From positions 1-64,000 of the forward strand of contig NZ_CAKE01000002.1 of NCBI RefSeq assembly GCF_000296835.1: a stretch of 64,000 bases of DNA, in the 5' to 3' direction. Below, one piece after another: positions 44,281 through 51,018 of this stretch (the first letter of the stretch is position 1; each line of letters begins with the position of its first letter). The translations under genes and the position numbers were made by a program. The notes under the pieces were generated by a model that saw only the letters and a list, made by a program, of their open reading frames with translations, had not been told where the DNA came from and made no database searches. The stretch comes from Lactobacillus hominis DSM 23910 = CRBIP 24.179 (GTDB lineage: Bacteria; Bacillota; Bacilli; Lactobacillales; Lactobacillaceae).

Positions 44281-46206
44281 ATGATTATTGCACAAGGACA
44301 AAATCTAGAACAACGCTTCGGCGCAAATACTATTTTTTCAGGAGTTAGTTTTTCTATTCCTGATAACGCCAGAATTGGTTTAGTTGGGCCTAATGGTGCC
44401 GGAAAGACCACCTTATTAAAAATCATGACTGGTCAACAAGAACCAACCCATGGCGAATTTACTATTAATAAAGGCATTAAAGTCGGCTATATTGCTCAGG
44501 AAAACGGTCTGGATGAAAATAAGACTATTTGGGATGAAATGCTGACAGTGTTTAATGATTTAATTCAAAAAAATAAAAAGATTACTGCTCTGCAGCAAGA
44601 AATTGCTGATCATCCTGAAGATCAAGCCTTGCTCAAGCGCTATGATCAAATGTCTTATGAATTTGAGCAAGAAGGTGGCTTTACTTATCAAGCTGAAATT
44701 AAAAGCATTTTAAACGGCTTTAACTTTAAAGAAGCTACCTGGCATAAAGTAATCGGTACTTTGTCCGGCGGTGAAAAAACACGCCTGGCTTTTGTAAAAC
44801 TGCTTTTGCAAAAGCCACCATTGCTTTTACTTGACGAACCAACCAACTATCTCGATTTAGATACGTTAGATTGGCTAGAAGCATTCTTGAAGAATTATCA
44901 AGGCGCAATTGTTACTGTCTCACACGACCAGTACTTCTTAGATCATTTAGCAAATCAAATTTTTGAATTAGATTTTGGTAAGCTGACTACTTTTAAAGGT
45001 AATTACACGCAATACACTAAAGAGCGTGAACTGATGAACACCCAACAAGAAGCAGCTTATGAAAAACAGCAAGAACAAATCAAAAAAGATGAAGAATTCA
45101 TCCAAAAGAATTTGGTTCGTGCTACTACAACTAAGCGTGCTCAAAGTCGACGTAAACGATTAGAAAAAATGGAACGTCTAACACCACCTAAGCATAAGTC
45201 AAAAGTTAGAATTCATTTTTCAAGCGATCACCCATCGGGTAAAGAAGTATTAATTCTAAAAGACTTAACTATCGGCTATCCAGATAAAACGATGGTTTCA
45301 GATATTGACTTTCAAGTTAACAAAAACGATCGTGTAGCTATCATTGGACCAAATGGTATTGGTAAATCCACCTTATTAAAGACAGTCATGAAGCAGCTTA
45401 AGCCCAAATCTGGTTCTATTAAATATGGTGCCAGCTTAGAGATTGGCTATTATGACCAAGAATTACAAGGACTTGATCCCTCTAAGACTGTTTTAGACAC
45501 AATTTGGGATCGTCACAAGACAATGCCAGAAAAAGACGTGCGTTCAATTTTAGCTAGTTTCTTATTTACTGCTAAAGACATTGATAAAACGGTTGGTCAA
45601 CTTTCTGGTGGTCAAAAAGCTCGTTTAACTTTAACAGTTTTATCATTAGAACACGACAACTTCTTGCTTATGGATGAGCCAACCAACCACTTGGACATTG
45701 AAGCTAAAGAAGTACTCGAAAATGCCTTATCAGATTATGACGGCACTTTGCTCTTTGTTTCTCACGACCGTTACTTCATTAACCAACTAGCTAATAAGAT
45801 CGTGGTTGTTCAAGATGGTAAAGCAAAGATCTACGAAGGTAATTATTCTTACTATCTTGATGAAAAGACTAAACAAGCACAGATTCAAGAAGCTGTTGCG
45901 AAAACTGAAACTACACAAACTTCTAATCCAGTTGAAAATAAAGGTAAGCTTTCTTATCAAGAACAAAAAGCACGTGATTCTCAAAAGCGTAAGTTAGAAC
46001 GCGCAGTTAGCGATAGCGAAAAAGAAATCGAAGAGCTTGAAAATCAAGAAAAAGAAATTCAAGAAGAAATGGCAAATCCAGATATTGCTGCTTCTTTTGA
46101 AAAACTTGGGCCTTTGCAAGAAAAATTATCCGCAGTTCAAGAAAAACTAGATAAAGCTAATGCGGCTTGGGAAAAAGCAATTGATGAATTAGATAATTTT
46201 GAATAA
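44281..46206 (+). CDS. ABC-F family ATPase (translation factor, YdiF/EttA-like)
   Basis: This 641-aa protein has two ATPase domains and no membrane helices: GPNGAGKTTL, LSGGEKTRLA and LLDEPTNYLDL in the first; GPNGIGKSTL, LSGGQKARLT and MDEPTNHLDI in the second. The linker between them (residues ~240-310) contacts the ribosomal P-site tRNA in this family, and a C-terminal Glu/Lys coiled coil follows (~555-641). It probably rescues stalled ribosomes; antibiotic protection is possible but not shown. AGGAG site upstream. Confidence 0.9.
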   Translation: MIIAQGQNLEQRFGANTIFSGVSFSIPDNARIGLVGPNGAGKTTLLKIMTGQQEPTHGEFTINKGIKVGYIAQENGLDENKTIWDEMLTVFNDLIQKNKKITALQQEIADHPEDQALLKRYDQMSYEFEQEGGFTYQAEIKSILNGFNFKEATWHKVIGTLSGGEKTRLAFVKLLLQKPPLLLLDEPTNYLDLDTLDWLEAFLKNYQGAIVTVSHDQYFLDHLANQIFELDFGKLTTFKGNYTQYTKERELMNTQQEAAYEKQQEQIKKDEEFIQKNLVRATTTKRAQSRRKRLEKMERLTPPKHKSKVRIHFSSDHPSGKEVLILKDLTIGYPDKTMVSDIDFQVNKNDRVAIIGPNGIGKSTLLKTVMKQLKPKSGSIKYGASLEIGYYDQELQGLDPSKTVLDTIWDRHKTMPEKDVRSILASFLFTAKDIDKTVGQLSGGQKARLTLTVLSLEHDNFLLMDEPTNHLDIEAKEVLENALSDYDGTLLFVSHDRYFINQLANKIVVVQDGKAKIYEGNYSYYLDEKTKQAQIQEAVAKTETTQTSNPVENKGKLSYQEQKARDSQKRKLERAVSDSEKEIEELENQEKEIQEEMANPDIAASFEKLGPLQEKLSAVQEKLDKANAAWEKAIDELDNFE

Positions 46207-46209
46207 AGA

Positions 46210-46252
46210 AGAAACCTCCAGCACTGATATTACTCAGCGCTGGAGGTTTTTT
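46210..46252 (+). terminator. Terminator after the ABC-F gene
   Basis: AAACCTCCAGC-actgatattactcagc-GCTGGAGGTTTTTT with an inner CTGA/TCAG extension. Confidence 0.88.
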
Positions 46253-46257
46253 ACTCG

Positions 46258-46512
46258 TTATTTTTCGTTATTCTTAATTATTATCAACTGCCCTAAAATC
46301 ATGCACAATTCTGGAAAAAACATTGTTTTAAACGATAAAATGCTAGGTTCTATAAATATTATCAACGTAATCAACAAAAGTGCTGTGGTAATAATTACTA
46401 CTCCCAGATTAGATTTTTCATAACTACTGGAGGACAATTTTATCCTTTTCAATTTTCCATAAATTAGCATCCCTAAACTAACAATTAAATATAGTGCAAT
46501 TAACCAAATCAA
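46258..46512 (-). CDS. Small membrane protein of the signalling locus; start uncertain
   Basis: 84 aa if translated from the TTG at 46512. Three hydrophobic segments (residues ~1-19, 37-55, 63-80). No family recognised. The only good ribosome site (GGAGG, 46542-46538) is ~25 nt upstream of that TTG. Between them the frame stays open, continues the hydrophobic helix (IIFGILIWLIAL), and offers only ATA/ATT codons at a suitable distance. Either a rare ATT/ATA start is used or the gene is poorly expressed. It lies downstream of the response-regulator gene; an immunity-like role is only a guess. Confidence 0.5.
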   Translation of the reverse strand: MIWLIALYLIVSLGMLIYGKLKRIKLSSSSYEKSNLGVVIITTALLLITLIIFIEPSILSFKTMFFPELCMILGQLIIIKNNEK

Positions 46513-46559
46513 TATTCCAAAAATTATATAATGTCTTCCTCCATAATGACTAGCAAACT

Positions 46560-46594
46560 ATGATATACTTTCCACTTATATTATATACCTTCCA
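46560..46594 (-). repeat. Two tandem 15-bp repeats, 20-bp period
   Basis: ATTATATACCTTCCA and ATGATATACTTTCCA (13 of 15 identical), at 46580-46594 and 46560-46574, lie directly after the response-regulator stop and before the small membrane protein. They contain promoter-like TATAAT/TATATC sequence, so they may be a promoter plus operator. Confidence 0.45.
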
Positions 46595-47353
46595 TTACTT
46601 CTCAAAATATTGTTTAATTTTTCTTTTCGCACTAAAAGCAAATTGAATTTCTTCACCTGAAGGAAAAATAATTAATCTTTTTTTCAAATCAACACGAGCA
46701 ATATTCTCCATATTAACTAAATATGATTGCGATACTTTGATAAATTTAGGAACTTCATCTTGGACATTTTTAATATCGCCAGTAAATTCTCCAACTTCAT
46801 TATTAGCCACAATTTTTAATCTATGTGGAAAAGGCGTTGTTGAAATGTAATAAATATCATTAATGTTTATTCGATAAAAACCATTTCCTACTTGGTAAGT
46901 AAATAGATCAGCTTGACTTTGACTAAATTCAGTTATTTTAGTACTTGCTTTTTCTAAGTCACGACTAATTTTTGCCTGAATTTTTTCTTCATTATCATTT
47001 TTAATAATATAATCAAGAGCCTCAATTTGACGTTCAAATGTTAACAATGCTAATTCATCATGCGTTGTCATAAAAATAATTTGAGCATTTTCTTGTTGAT
47101 TGCGAATAAAATTAGCAAGTTCAATACCATTGGCATCGTCAGGATTATCGCTTAATTGAATGTCTAAAAAATAAATATCAGCACAATTCGAAGAAAGAGC
47201 TTTAATTGCATCATCATAAGAATAAAACTTATCTGTAATTTCATACCTACTATTTTCGTCAGACAAAACAGTGCAAGATTTTTGAATCATTTCAGCCAAA
47301 TGAGCATTTTGATTTTCGTCATCTTCGCAAATGGCTATTTTATAAGTTCGCAT
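46595..47353 (-). CDS. LytTR response regulator, AgrA/PlnC type
   Basis: 252 aa from the ATG at 47353 (AGGGG 9 nt upstream; an ATG three codons earlier is also open). The receiver domain has ICEDDENQ and the phosphoacceptor FLDIQLSD (near residue 60). The LytTR DNA-binding domain follows from ~residue 150 (INDIYYISTTPFPHRLKI, FIKVSQSYLVNMENI). Start overlaps the kinase stop. It probably binds the direct repeat at 49645-49674. Confidence 0.9.
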   Translation of the reverse strand: MRTYKIAICEDDENQNAHLAEMIQKSCTVLSDENSRYEITDKFYSYDDAIKALSSNCADIYFLDIQLSDNPDDANGIELANFIRNQQENAQIIFMTTHDELALLTFERQIEALDYIIKNDNEEKIQAKISRDLEKASTKITEFSQSQADLFTYQVGNGFYRININDIYYISTTPFPHRLKIVANNEVGEFTGDIKNVQDEVPKFIKVSQSYLVNMENIARVDLKKRLIIFPSGEEIQFAFSAKRKIKQYFEK

Positions 47354-47354
47354 C

Positions 47355-48611
47355 TTATTCATCCCCTATTATATTCAATTTAAAGATAAACCAGTCTTGT
47401 TTCACTTGATAATTAATAAATAAGTTAGGATATTTTGCTCTAATCTGATTTATATTTGATAGTCCCAATCCTTGATGCTTATTTTTAGTGGAATATCCAG
47501 CTTGTTGAATTTTAGACACTTCTATGTCATTTGACATCTTATTTTCAATTTCAAAAATAAAAGAGTTCTTATTTTGGAACATATAAGATTTTATTTCAGC
47601 AGTAGAATTATTCTCACTTGCTTCAATTGCATTGTCAAAAACAATTCCAATTATTCTACTTAAATCAAACGGATCAATGAACTTATCCAAATTATCAATT
47701 ACAGTACTGCATTCAAAACTAAACTTGATGTGCTTTTTTTCGATCTCATTTATTTTACTAATGAGCAAACTTTTCATTTGTAGATCTTTAATTCGAGTTA
47801 AATTCTTATACTTTTCAAAACTTCCCTGATCAAGCTCTTTTTTGGAATAAGTGTCTAATTTTTCTAAGAGCTTAGAACTATCTTCTTGTGAAGCCAGCGA
47901 CCGCAAACTTAAAAGCATATTTTGATAATCATGTTTGAAACGACGCAGTTTTTCTTCACTATATTCCAAATTTTTAAGATAGGCTTCAAGATTTTGTTCT
48001 CTTTCTTGTTTTAGTTTATTTTTTAGGCTTCGCTTGTATATTTTATTTTGAGCATAAAAAGCATAGATCATAAATAAGAATTGAACAAATAAAAGCATAC
48101 TGCTAATTAAAATACCAGAAACATCTTGATCAGCTCGCATAATAATTAATCCAATTACATGCAAGGCTGCAAAAGCATAAACTATTAACCCTAATAGTAA
48201 ATAATTGTTTTCTCGAGTAAACAATTGATAAAGTTTTAATTTTTCTATTGAGACAAGAACTAGGATAAAGTAAATTACAGCAATTGGGACCATATATACA
48301 GCAAGTGCTGGTAATAGCATTGCAATTAATCTTAAAAATAGATCTCCTGCATAAGTGAACAAGTTTGCAAATAAAATAGTGCTGATAGTGGTAACTATCC
48401 TATTTTTCATACTGTACAAGCAAATAACTATTATCAAAAAGACTAGTTGACTAATTAGAAAATCAGGGATGGCTAAACTAGCTGCCAAAACAATGATAAT
48501 TTTGATGAGATCTTTTCTTAAACTTAATTTACGCTGGTTTAATCTATAAAAAAGTAATAATTGATATGCATCGAAAAAGAAATACATTAGATAATTGAAA
48601 ATTGCGAACAT
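47355..48611 (-). CDS. Sensor histidine kinase, AgrC/PlnB type (HPK10)
   Basis: 418 aa from the ATG at 48611. A 41-codon longer reading would start inside the preceding gene and cross a terminator-like hairpin. The N-terminal ~200 residues form about six membrane helices, then a coiled coil, the H-box RRFKHDYQNML, the N-box IVFDNAIEAS and the G-box GLGLSNI. HPK10 kinases usually sense secreted peptides. The ligand here is unknown; the neighbouring secreted protein is a candidate. Confidence 0.88.
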   Translation of the reverse strand: MFAIFNYLMYFFFDAYQLLLFYRLNQRKLSLRKDLIKIIIVLAASLAIPDFLISQLVFLIIVICLYSMKNRIVTTISTILFANLFTYAGDLFLRLIAMLLPALAVYMVPIAVIYFILVLVSIEKLKLYQLFTRENNYLLLGLIVYAFAALHVIGLIIMRADQDVSGILISSMLLFVQFLFMIYAFYAQNKIYKRSLKNKLKQEREQNLEAYLKNLEYSEEKLRRFKHDYQNMLLSLRSLASQEDSSKLLEKLDTYSKKELDQGSFEKYKNLTRIKDLQMKSLLISKINEIEKKHIKFSFECSTVIDNLDKFIDPFDLSRIIGIVFDNAIEASENNSTAEIKSYMFQNKNSFIFEIENKMSNDIEVSKIQQAGYSTKNKHQGLGLSNINQIRAKYPNLFINYQVKQDWFIFKLNIIGDE

Positions 48612-48666
48612 TATTAAGCCTAGCTTTCTAAAATAAGTCTTAGAATACCATGTAATAAGCCAACAG

Positions 48667-48696
48667 AAAAGAGGATGATTGTGAATCATCCTCTTT
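48667..48696 (-). terminator. Intra-operon hairpin between secreted-protein gene and kinase gene
   Basis: On the minus strand AAAGAGGATGATT-cac-AATCATCCTCTTTT, a perfect 13-bp stem starting 4 nt after the TAA of the secreted-protein gene. Its T run is short (TTTT), so partial read-through into the kinase gene is likely. It may set a higher level for the promoter-proximal genes. Confidence 0.7.
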
Positions 48697-48700
48697 AATC

Positions 48701-49330
48701 TTACCATGTACCAAAAGATGGAACATAAGCCCAATTAATATCCATATATATTCTCTTATTTCTATGAGTATTATTGTAATTTTGTAATTGCATGGCCAGC
48801 CCCTTATAATACAACGAACCAAATGTTGCAATTTTATATTTAGTGACATGACTAATAAGACCAAGTACATCATTATAATGACTATATTTATTTACGGTAT
48901 ATGCTACTGCTGCATTGGAACTGTAATATGAACGTTGTCCCCACCAGAACCATTTAGCTTGTAATCCTGGTCTAATACTAAATGCACCTTGAATAAACAT
49001 AGTATACGGATTATATTGAACAATTTCTTTAGTTTCTGGATCAATTAGGAGATTATTACTTTTAATTCCATTATTTATGTTTTTAATTTATTGTTGAGCT
49101 AAACGGATTTTATTTACTGAAATATTCGTATTTTCTGGAATATTTAGAACAAATTCATTATTTTTCACATTAACATATTGATCGATCTCACTTATATCAT
49201 TTTGCGATAAACTATTATCACTAACTTGTTGGCTAGATTGTGGAACCGTTGCTGCTTGAACATGGTTTACATTAATAATTGCAAAAGCTAAGGTTGCAGC
49301 ACCAAGTAAAACATATTTTTTAATCTTCAT
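48701..49330 (-). pseudogene. Secreted protein gene interrupted by one in-frame TAA
   Basis: ATG at 49330; the first 80 codons encode a Sec signal peptide (KKYVLLGAATLAFAIINV, AxA cleavage at VQA) and a polar segment ending in QQ. A TAA follows at 49090-49088. The same frame then stays open for 128 codons to 48701, with no frameshift, through a Trp/Tyr-rich domain (KWFWWGQRSYYSS) ending in FGTW. The second part has no ribosome site of its own. An undamaged version would be about 209 aa. The family is not recognised. Start overlaps the upstream membrane gene by 1 nt. Sequencing error or read-through are alternatives. Confidence 0.7.
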
Positions 49331-49578
49331 TATTTTAACTTCCTTTTCTTAACTAAAAATACAATCAAAAATATCAATCCCAAAACAAGACTATAAAAAC
49401 TTACAGCATACATCGCTAAATCCCAATTATCTTTTGATAAATAAACCGAAAGAAAGTTAATTAAGGCAAGTCCCATAAAGGCAATTGCTAAAACAAGCCA
49501 AATTCTTTCAGGATGATTTTTACTTATCAATAATCCAATAATAATGAGTGCGGCAATTACAATTAAATCTATCATCAT
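49330..49578 (-). CDS. Small membrane protein, first gene of the LytTR-controlled operon
   Basis: This 82-aa protein has three hydrophobic segments (residues ~3-18, 27-46, 58-76) and a basic C-terminus (VKKRKLK). No family recognised. Size, topology and location directly before a secreted protein and a peptide-sensing two-component system suit an immunity or export-accessory protein, but that is inference. TAATG overlap couples it to the secreted-protein gene. Confidence 0.65.
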   Translation of the reverse strand: MMIDLIVIAALIIIGLLISKNHPERIWLVLAIAFMGLALINFLSVYLSKDNWDLAMYAVSFYSLVLGLIFLIVFLVKKRKLK

Positions 49579-49610
49579 TTTGTTCGACCTCCATTTTTGA
49601 TTTCGTAAGT

Positions 49611-49639
49611 AGTATATCTGCTTTAGATTTCTTATTTCA
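49611..49639 (-). promoter_or_regulatory. Promoter of the signalling operon
   Basis: On the minus strand TGAAAT (49639-49634), a 17-bp spacer and TATACT (49616-49611). The poor -35 and good -10 fit an activator-dependent promoter. A GGAGGTCG ribosome site follows before the 82-aa gene. Confidence 0.65.
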
Positions 49640-49644
49640 TTAAC

Positions 49645-49674
49645 TTCAAATTCGTTAATTATCTATTCAAATTC
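49645..49674 (-). promoter_or_regulatory. LytTR-type operator: perfect 9-bp direct repeat
   Basis: On the minus strand GAATTTGAA (49674-49666), 12 bp, GAATTTGAA (49653-49645), i.e. a 21-bp phase. It ends 5 nt upstream of the -35. This is the repeat length and spacing of AgrA/PlnC-class binding sites; the base sequence itself is not one I know. Confidence 0.75.
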
Positions 49675-49678
49675 ATAC

Positions 49679-49717
49679 AAAAAACTCCAGTGCCAACAAA
49701 ATCAGCACTGGAGCTTT
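49679..49717 (-). terminator. Terminator after purB
   Basis: On the minus strand AAAGCTCCAGTGC-tgattttgttg-GCACTGGAGTTTTTTG with a perfect 9-bp core. It separates purB from the signalling operon. Confidence 0.88.
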
Positions 49718-49722
49718 AATTT

Positions 49723-51018
49723 TTAATCTAATCCACACTTTTTGAAAATATCATCCACATGACGCAAGTGATAATGATAATCAAATGCATCATCAATATC
49801 TTCTTTAGAGAGATAATTCATAATTTCGCTATTTTCCACAAGTGGCCGGAATTGCTTTTGTTCATTCCAAGACTTAGCAGTTAGCTTTTGCACCATATCA
49901 TATGCTTTTTCACGTGATAATCCTGCTTCATCAATTAACTTAAGCAATACTCTTTGTGAATAAATCAAACCATAAGTCCGATCCATATTCTTGAGCATTG
50001 TTTCTGGGAATACATCTAAGTTAGTCAAAATTCGATTGAAGCGGTGAAGCATATAATCAATTGCAATTGTTGTGTCTGGCAAAATCACACGCTCAGCACT
50101 TGAATGAGAAATATCGCGCTCATGCCATAAAGCAACATCTTCATAAGCAGTCACAATATGTCCGCGAACTACCCGAGCCATTCCGCATAAATTCTCTGAT
50201 CCAATTGGATTACGCTTGTGCGGCATTGCAGATGAACCTTTTTGACCTGCTCTAAAGTGTTCTTCAACTTCATGAATTTCACTACGTTGCAGGCCTCGAA
50301 TTTCTGTTGCCCAATTTTCGATGCTAGTTGCAATTAAAGCAAGCATCGCAATATATTCTGCATGCAAATCTCTAGGCAAAACTTGACTAGTAATTGGCTG
50401 CTGAGTTAAGCCTAATTGTTTCATCACGCTCGTTTCAACAGCTGGTGGAACATTGGCAAACGTTCCAACGGCACCGGAAATCTTACCAGATTCAACGCCT
50501 TTAGCAGCATGTTCAAAACGTTCAATATCACGGTTAATTTCGGCATACCAGCGAGCAAGCTTTAAGCCAAAAGTAGTTGGTTCTGCTTGAACGCCATGAG
50601 TGCGTCCCATTTCAACCGTATATTTATATTTCTTAGCTTTTTCGGCAATCGTCTTTTTTAATTCATGCAAGTCTTTTCTGATGATTTCATCGGCTTGCTT
50701 AAGCAATACGCCTTGAGCAGTATCAACTACATCTGTTGAAGTAAGACCAAAGTGAACCCACTTTTTTTCTTCGCCCAAACTTTCAGAAACAGTCCGTGTA
50801 AAAGCAACCACATCATGGTGCGTTACTTGTTCAAGTTCTGCTACGCGCTCAGCAGTAAAGGATGCATTTTTAGCAATTTTTTCAGCATCTTGTTTTGGCA
50901 CTTCACCAAGCTCTGCCCAAGCATTTGTTGCTGCAATTTCAACTTTCAACCAAGCTGAATATTTATTTTCATCTGTCCAAACTTTGCCCATTTCTGGACG
51001 AGTATAACGCTCTAACAT
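49723..51018 (-). CDS. purB: Adenylosuccinate lyase
   Basis: This 431-aa protein belongs to the fumarase/aspartase superfamily, with [10 protein letters not shown] near residue 93, [14 protein letters not shown] near 138 and the signature [15 protein letters not shown] near 260 carrying the catalytic Ser. It cleaves SAICAR and adenylosuccinate. It follows purA by 3 nt, so the two AMP-branch steps are cotranscribed. Confidence 0.97.

Follow-up and report, generated by a model that had tools for sequence, protein, structure and literature searches.

Dysgalacticin is a plasmid-borne protein of 220 amino acids (aa) with a Sec leader and a membrane-associated immunity factor encoded beside its structural gene; with its partner DysI it is described as antibacterial with membrane effects, and a review states that how dysgalacticin and streptococcin A-M57 are regulated has not been elucidated (PMC8308785). 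Geobacillin 26 and alicyclobacillin 24, of 245 and 238 aa, carry a Sec signal and are secreted and inhibitory; their core is described as helical with some beta elements, a membrane helix is postulated at the C-terminus, and action at the membrane has been suggested (PMC13176240). For regulation, a close described case is plnABCD of L. plantarum, whose PlnC/PlnD sites consist of two 9-base-pair (bp) repeats with a 12-bp spacer upstream of the -35/-10 elements (PMC2714321). Here we analysed 64,000 nucleotides of Lactobacillus hominis DSM 23910 = CRBIP 24.179 (assembly GCF_000296835.1, contig NZ_CAKE01000002.1, positions 1 to 64,000; this whole stretch is called the window), in which a LytTR-type two-component system lies beside a frame for a Sec-type secreted protein and a gene for an 82-aa membrane protein. 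Sequence comparison makes it moderately probable that the latter two form a bacteriocin-immunity pair of a class III-like kind, controlled by an autoregulatory two-component system of its own that uses no peptide pheromone. The module is real and conserved, probably of bacteriocin type, and broken in the window strain.

The locus shares different parts with each of these systems. Dysgalacticin (DysA/DysI) is of similar size to the secreted protein, and like streptococcin A-M57 it uses Sec export and adjoins a membrane-protein gene, a likeness of description only; the small membrane protein gene beside the structural gene of dysgalacticin has its counterpart in the 82-aa gene, whose product is a putative immunity protein. 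Four queries from the secreted family, run at E ≤ 10, matched no Streptococcus plasmid. The plnABCD system has an AgrC/PlnB-kind kinase and a LytTR regulator, as in the window, and an identical 9-12-9 operator geometry upstream of the promoter with a different repeat sequence (GAATTTGAA in the window versus TACGTTAAT in pln). In contrast to pln, no double-glycine pheromone was accepted near the window locus and no C39 exporter was found in its genome. With regard to staphylococcal agr, the AgrC and AgrA models of NCBIfam match the window kinase and regulator with scores far below their cut-offs, no AgrB over the cut-off and no AgrD were seen, and the output in the window is a linked effector gene.

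Anatomy and control of the locus

The window genome (G000; 1.93 Mb in 36 contigs, 99.93% complete) carries all module genes on the minus strand between ABC-F (44281-46206, plus strand) and purB (49723-51018, minus strand), names that we assigned by reading the sequences. Read along the minus strand, the order is operator, 82-aa membrane protein, secreted-protein frame, hairpin, kinase and LytTR regulator, and the features of the region, including two that follow the regulator, are:

49645-49674, minus strand: operator, two 9-bp direct repeats with a 12-bp spacer (perfect repeat; kept in relatives)
49330-49578, minus strand: 82-aa protein with three hydrophobic segments, probable immunity protein (open reading frame (ORF), hydropathy, relatives)
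48701-49330, minus strand: Sec-type secreted-protein frame, 209 codons, TAA at codon 81 (ORF, relatives, substitution ratios)
about 48668-48696, minus strand: hairpin followed by a T-rich stretch, probable leaky terminator (folding, alignment of relatives)
47355-48611, minus strand: AgrC/PlnB-type sensor kinase, about 418 aa (domain and profile matches, relatives)
46595-47362, minus strand: AgrA/PlnC-type response regulator with LytTR domain (domain and profile matches)
46258-46512, minus strand: 84-aa hydrophobic ORF with an unconvincing start, probably outside the module (ORF, absence in relatives)
46212-46249, minus strand: intrinsic terminator ending the unit and also serving the convergent ABC-F gene from the opposite side (sequence)

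Orthologous loci were compared in an uncultured Lactobacillus known from a metagenome-assembled genome (G094, locus L058), in L. johnsonii ATCC 33200 (G012, L060) and in three further genomes, G088 (L064), G089 and G006 (L059). A first-pass annotation, made from the window sequence alone, had described an ordered unit of five genes behind a promoter with a LytTR-type direct repeat. Four of these genes were found in the order given, the secreted frame being interrupted by the TAA, and the fifth, the 84-aa ORF, probably does not belong to the module. The repeat was confirmed as GAATTTGAA at 49666-49674 and 49645-49653, a perfect 9-bp repeat with a period of 21 bp and a spacer of 12 bp, and a -10-like TATACT follows downstream at 49616-49611. 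When the 144-bp upstream region was shuffled 5000 times with dinucleotides preserved, 23 shuffles contained a perfect repeat of at least 9 bases at a period of 20-22. Both half-sites and the 12-bp spacing are kept in all five loci compared (window, G094, G088, G006 and G012) while the flanks diverge, and the single substitution among the five operators lies in the left half-site of G094. Across the window's own genome, the operator pattern gave 12 sites at up to 3 mismatches; the sole site at ≤1 mismatch is the module operator, and all 7 of the 11 other sites that were examined lie inside long open frames. This uniqueness, together with the recurrent pairing of the secreted and small membrane proteins described below, supports the earlier proposal of a self-contained signalling or bacteriocin-like module.

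The kinase has six hydrophobic segments followed by a GHKL ATPase that matches HATPase_c_5 of Pfam. The AgrC-like kinase of the first-pass annotation stands, but its listed start probably does not. The ORF list places this at TTG 48734, and because the relatives begin at MFAIF or MFLIF, matching ATG 48611, the latter is the probable start; the kinase would therefore not overlap the secreted gene. The regulator matches Response_reg and LytTR of Pfam, and its orthologues in G094, G012, G088 and G089 are 255-257 aa long. A tree built from kinases of ≥330 aa places the three whole orthologues in a long-branched clade of their own (support 1.0), and the kinases nearest to that clade, a placement of weak support (0.66), stand without a double-glycine peptide. 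Between the effector stop and the kinase, a strong hairpin, absent from the first-pass annotation, was predicted in all four loci folded (z -4.1, -3.9, -5.4 and -6.4). Its likely role is partial termination, by which the effector genes would be made in excess of the sensor.

The usual parts of a peptide circuit had been reported as lacking, and the wider search agrees. A double-glycine pheromone accompanies 14 of 25 other kinase loci of the genus, as judged by reading of script flags; the script had flagged 17 of 35 entries, three of which (L015, L035 and L041, the last an orthologous locus) were rejected by reading. Near the orthologous loci, script and reading yielded no accepted double-glycine peptide. 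The window genome has no match to Peptidase_C39, a domain present in 8 of 14 control genomes, and no AgrB over the cut-off; of two weak AgrB matches, neither reads as an AgrB. Since a peptide pheromone was not seen at the locus, nor a dedicated peptide exporter in the genome, the likeliest signal would be the secreted protein, a fragment of it or the damage that it does.

Orthologous loci and the interrupted secreted frame

In G094 the module occupies the exact site that it has in the window, with ABC-F on one side and purB on the other. It lies near purB with other genes between in G012, G088 and G089, and near an ABC-F gene on a contig that ends there in G006. The gene order recurs, together with the operator, in related lactobacilli; the 84-aa protein does not travel along. 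The 82-aa protein, which has three hydrophobic segments and is encoded directly upstream of the secreted gene, had matches at E ≤ 0.01 among 74 other genomes of the genus only in G094, G006, G088 and G012, each adjoining the secreted gene or its remains. These features make the 82-aa protein a probable immunity protein.

The secreted frame (48701-49330) begins with basic residues, a hydrophobic stretch and an AxA-like site, recognised by eye, and reaches a maximum hydropathy of 1.6 in its first piece; an in-frame TAA interrupts it at codon 81 of 209. An intact orthologue of 209 aa exists in G094 alone, the frame being disrupted in five of the six loci, the window included. One nonsense codon each, at different places, is found in the window, G012 and G006; G088 has an internal deletion, and the frame was not found in G089, where an IS30-like transposase (identified by reading) lies beside the truncated kinase. 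Programmed read-through at codon 81 was considered and rejected, because the nonsense codons of the relatives differ in place and other copies have deletions. A complete kinase gene is present in the window, G094 and G088; G012 has it split, G089 has a truncated copy, and in G006 it is not on the contig; the regulator is whole in all five loci where it is visible; and the 82-aa gene is whole in the window, G094, G088 and G006, carries a nonsense codon in G012 and was not found in G089.

To compare selection, we used the ratio of non-synonymous to synonymous substitution rates (dN/dS) between the window and G094, a rough measure here as dS is near saturation. The secreted frame gave 0.14 before the stop and 0.10 after it, the 82-aa gene 0.20, the kinase 0.09 and the regulator 0.20, with 0.03 for ABC-F and 0.02 for purB. 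At 0.09-0.20, the ratios indicate that the module genes are under purifying selection. Since dN/dS stays at 0.10 after the stop, the codon-81 stop is probably recent, provided that it is not an assembly error. Collectively, the comparison points to a bacteriocin-like effector that is probably inactive in the window strain. Because the effector frame is interrupted, this strain is probably an immune, still-sensing non-producer that has lost its toxin.

The secreted family and its small hydrophobic partner

None of the three non-regulatory proteins had been assigned to a family in the first-pass annotation. This holds for named families, as searches of Pfam, NCBIfam, PHROGs and PDB sequences with the module proteins and their relatives gave no convincing family and no match to a well-known bacteriocin family. 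By sequence matches, however, the secreted protein is one of a large family, so far without a name, that is spread across Bacilli: within the order it has matches in 32 of 395 genomes (own included; several weak or fragments, three being remnants of 24-25 residues) and 24 of 398 genomes of the class (own included; some weak or fragments). The second half of the secreted frame matches 7 of 60 genomes (own included), and in the family of G413 27 of 295 genomes match at the looser E ≤ 0.01, many over the signal peptide only. Plasmid searches gave 39 records at a very loose E ≤ 10. Those that match clearly, at E 6e-8 or better, are plasmids of L. plantarum, Loigolactobacillus, Weissella, L. kefiranofaciens, Macrococcus/Macrococcoides and Enterococcus, including Enterococcus gallinarum, and in the records examined they carry only the annotation "hypothetical protein". 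A member also occurs on the Listeria monocytogenes plasmid pj1-0208 (L192), annotated hypothetical and followed 22 bp downstream by a 66-aa ORF, and another on an L. seeligeri plasmid. Viral contigs searched with three queries contained no relative. Plantacyclin B21AG and acidocin B came up only at E 1.8 and 4.7, and three plasmid matches to garvicin Q genes (E 2) were taken as chance.

For further comparison, we took 55 distinct members (E ≤ 1e-6, ≥170 aa; some near-duplicates). Weak matches confined to the first 55-60 positions were attributed to the signal peptide and fall outside this set by its E ≤ 1e-6. Family members start with a signal-like segment, have a conserved region around DxYVxVxNNQYVL and either a WWG or an HWNY motif, and vary in their C-terminal part. 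Within 150 bp downstream, 44 of the 55 have a hydrophobic ORF of 46-99 aa, compared to 15 of 180 other large ORFs of the same loci; two members, the G094 orthologue among them, have a small hydrophobic ORF only upstream, and nine have one on neither side. The count was 52 of 65 at E ≤ 1e-4 and 42 of 52 at E ≤ 1e-8. By eye, the partner proteins are dissimilar to each other in sequence. Immunity proteins are often unlike each other in sequence. A secreted protein with a small hydrophobic ORF is, by analogy, the anatomy of a bacteriocin with its immunity protein.

Variation within the family takes several forms. The loci L072, L075, L077, L081, L128, L149-L165 and others encode secreted proteins, about 200-260 aa long, that resemble each other in the N-terminal part and differ at the C-terminal end, a set that looks polymorphic; they come from other families of the order and class, and most have the small hydrophobic partner. 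Several other Lactobacillus loci combine the same secreted family and a small membrane protein downstream with a helix-turn-helix regulator of Rgg size in front, which takes the place of the two-component pair of the window. The RGG_Cterm model is passed by one of seven such regulators, the one next to an orphan partner; for the others, 'Rgg' is our label. A membrane protein of 79 aa, preceded by no more than a 30-aa remnant of a secreted-family member, occurs at L117 and L118 (G036, G089), downstream of a GroEL-like gene, and at L093 (G095); it is a probable orphan immunity gene, and at L117 an Rgg-type regulator precedes it. At L139, L142, L145 and L146, in the family of G413, another kind of secreted protein, some 190 aa long and matched at the signal peptide only, is followed by a hydrophobic ORF of 55-59 aa, possibly another bacteriocin-immunity pair.

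A weak C-terminal match to NF035925, the geobacillin 26 family (E 0.022), prompted a comparison with that family. The model, whose cut-off is 40 bits, had no match in the window genome, in the two window pieces or in any of the 11 sequences of set A3, one of them being the window's second half, and among 20 further relatives only L137 matched, weakly, at 14.6 bits. Profile alignment of NF035925 with the secreted family by hhalign gave a probability of 95 (E 3.6e-8) over 22 columns and of 93 (E 3e-7) over 74 columns; both alignments are this short, their E-values are those of single comparisons, and both include the WWG-like motif found in the two families. A small hydrophobic ORF also follows 12 of the 17 NF035925 places over the cut-off, a thirteenth flag being the protein's own second half. 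Keyword searches of the open-licence literature found no description of the secreted family or of the locus.

Proposed mechanism and rival explanations

In the mechanism that we propose, the response regulator would bind the 9-12-9 repeat as a dimer and switch on one transcript, which would encode the membrane immunity protein first and then the Sec-exported antibacterial protein. Past the leaky terminator, kinase and regulator would be transcribed too, giving positive feedback. The kinase would sense an extracellular cue, which may be the secreted protein itself, a fragment or the damage done by it. In related bacteria the secreted protein would probably attack the membrane, an action that the 82-aa protein would block in the producer.

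Several points weigh against this interpretation. Antibacterial activity of the secreted protein is predicted from sequence, no named bacteriocin family matches it, and a kinase that senses a whole protein would be unusual. By the criterion used, 11 of the 55 members have no small hydrophobic ORF downstream; the 82-aa gene precedes its effector, opposite to 44 of the 55, and, compared by position and type, its product is only a candidate counterpart of the family partners. The C-terminal hydropathy of the G094 orthologue (0.6) is the lowest of the 55, and that of the window piece is 0.91, whereas 50 of the 55 members reach 1.2; because this C-terminal part is the least hydrophobic, a simple membrane insertion or pore model is doubtful for the window's branch. 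The system may also often be dispensable, since the secreted frame is broken in five of the six loci.

We therefore weighed three other explanations. The secreted protein could be a signal, or a surface accessory that presents the signal to the kinase, with the 82-aa protein in the sensing or processing machinery. Relatives of the module kinase or regulator stand next to the secreted family only in the module locus (1 of 55, the G094 copy), the search for another signal gene found none, and in relatives the parts remain linked, as this explanation would have it. Yet none was seen at the other 54 member loci, with flanks of mostly about 1.5 kb, and most of these loci keep the small membrane partner. 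A kinase-regulator pair standing without the other genes in relatives, which the first-pass annotation had named as telling against a novel module, was seen in part. In G089 the secreted and 82-aa genes are lost while the regulator and a truncated kinase persist, which also speaks against a signalling role for the secreted protein. We consider such a role unlikely. A decaying remnant with no present function in the window strain is hard to reconcile with an 82-aa protein, kinase and regulator that are intact and have evolved at dN/dS 0.09-0.20 relative to G094, with an intact operator, and with a ratio of 0.10 after the stop, which makes any loss recent. It would account for the effector frame being broken in the window and in four of the five related loci, and for the split kinase and broken 82-aa frame of L. 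johnsonii ATCC 33200; on balance we judge it improbable.

The third alternative is a common peptide quorum circuit of pln or agr type with a peptide gene that escaped notice or is located elsewhere; kinase, regulator and operator geometry are of that type. But no double-glycine peptide was accepted near any orthologous locus, where the script flag at L041 was rejected by reading, the 99.93% complete genome has no C39 exporter domain and no true AgrB, and its operator-like sites at ≤1 mismatch number one; such a circuit is highly improbable here. Returning to the bacteriocin-immunity interpretation, a broader and more tentative reading, which we hold to be less likely than not, joins the locus to its family. 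The family would then be a polymorphic superfamily of bacteriocins exported by Sec and found throughout Bacilli. Its members would share the N-terminal half, exchange their C-terminal halves, be matched by tiny membrane immunity proteins and be distant relatives of geobacillin 26, and at the module locus a large bacteriocin would serve as its own signal for a pheromone-less switch of AgrC/LytTR type.

Among the genomes compared, dedicated two-component control of the secreted family is seen only at this locus and its orthologues. In the module, a protein of the class III streptococcal bacteriocin kind would come with both an operator that is defined and a sensor of its own, and the question of what switches on such proteins is therefore directly testable. 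The broader family may be the larger finding than the locus itself. It is large, its clear plasmid matches are annotated as hypothetical only, and a name for it would put a label on many probable toxin-immunity pairs of bacteria from food and the gut.

The 84-aa ORF is probably outside the module because of its poor start and its absence from relatives: the sole start is a TTG about 22 nucleotides from a GGAGG box, a search of 74 other genomes of the genus gave no match at E ≤ 0.001, and the 44 bp between ABC-F and the regulator in G094 leave no room for it. The idea that it corresponds to the C-terminal half of a membrane protein of 144 aa (G060, L113; similar in G090 and G065) is unsupported, with BLASTP E-values of 0.38 and 0.011 and a likeness of position only. 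This protein of about 144 aa (L112-L115; G074, G060, G090, G065) adjoins a kinase-regulator pair in G060 and a related stretch in G074; the DNA examined in G090 and G065 contains no such pair there. At the other end of the module, a stem-loop at 49681-49717 follows purB just upstream of the operator.

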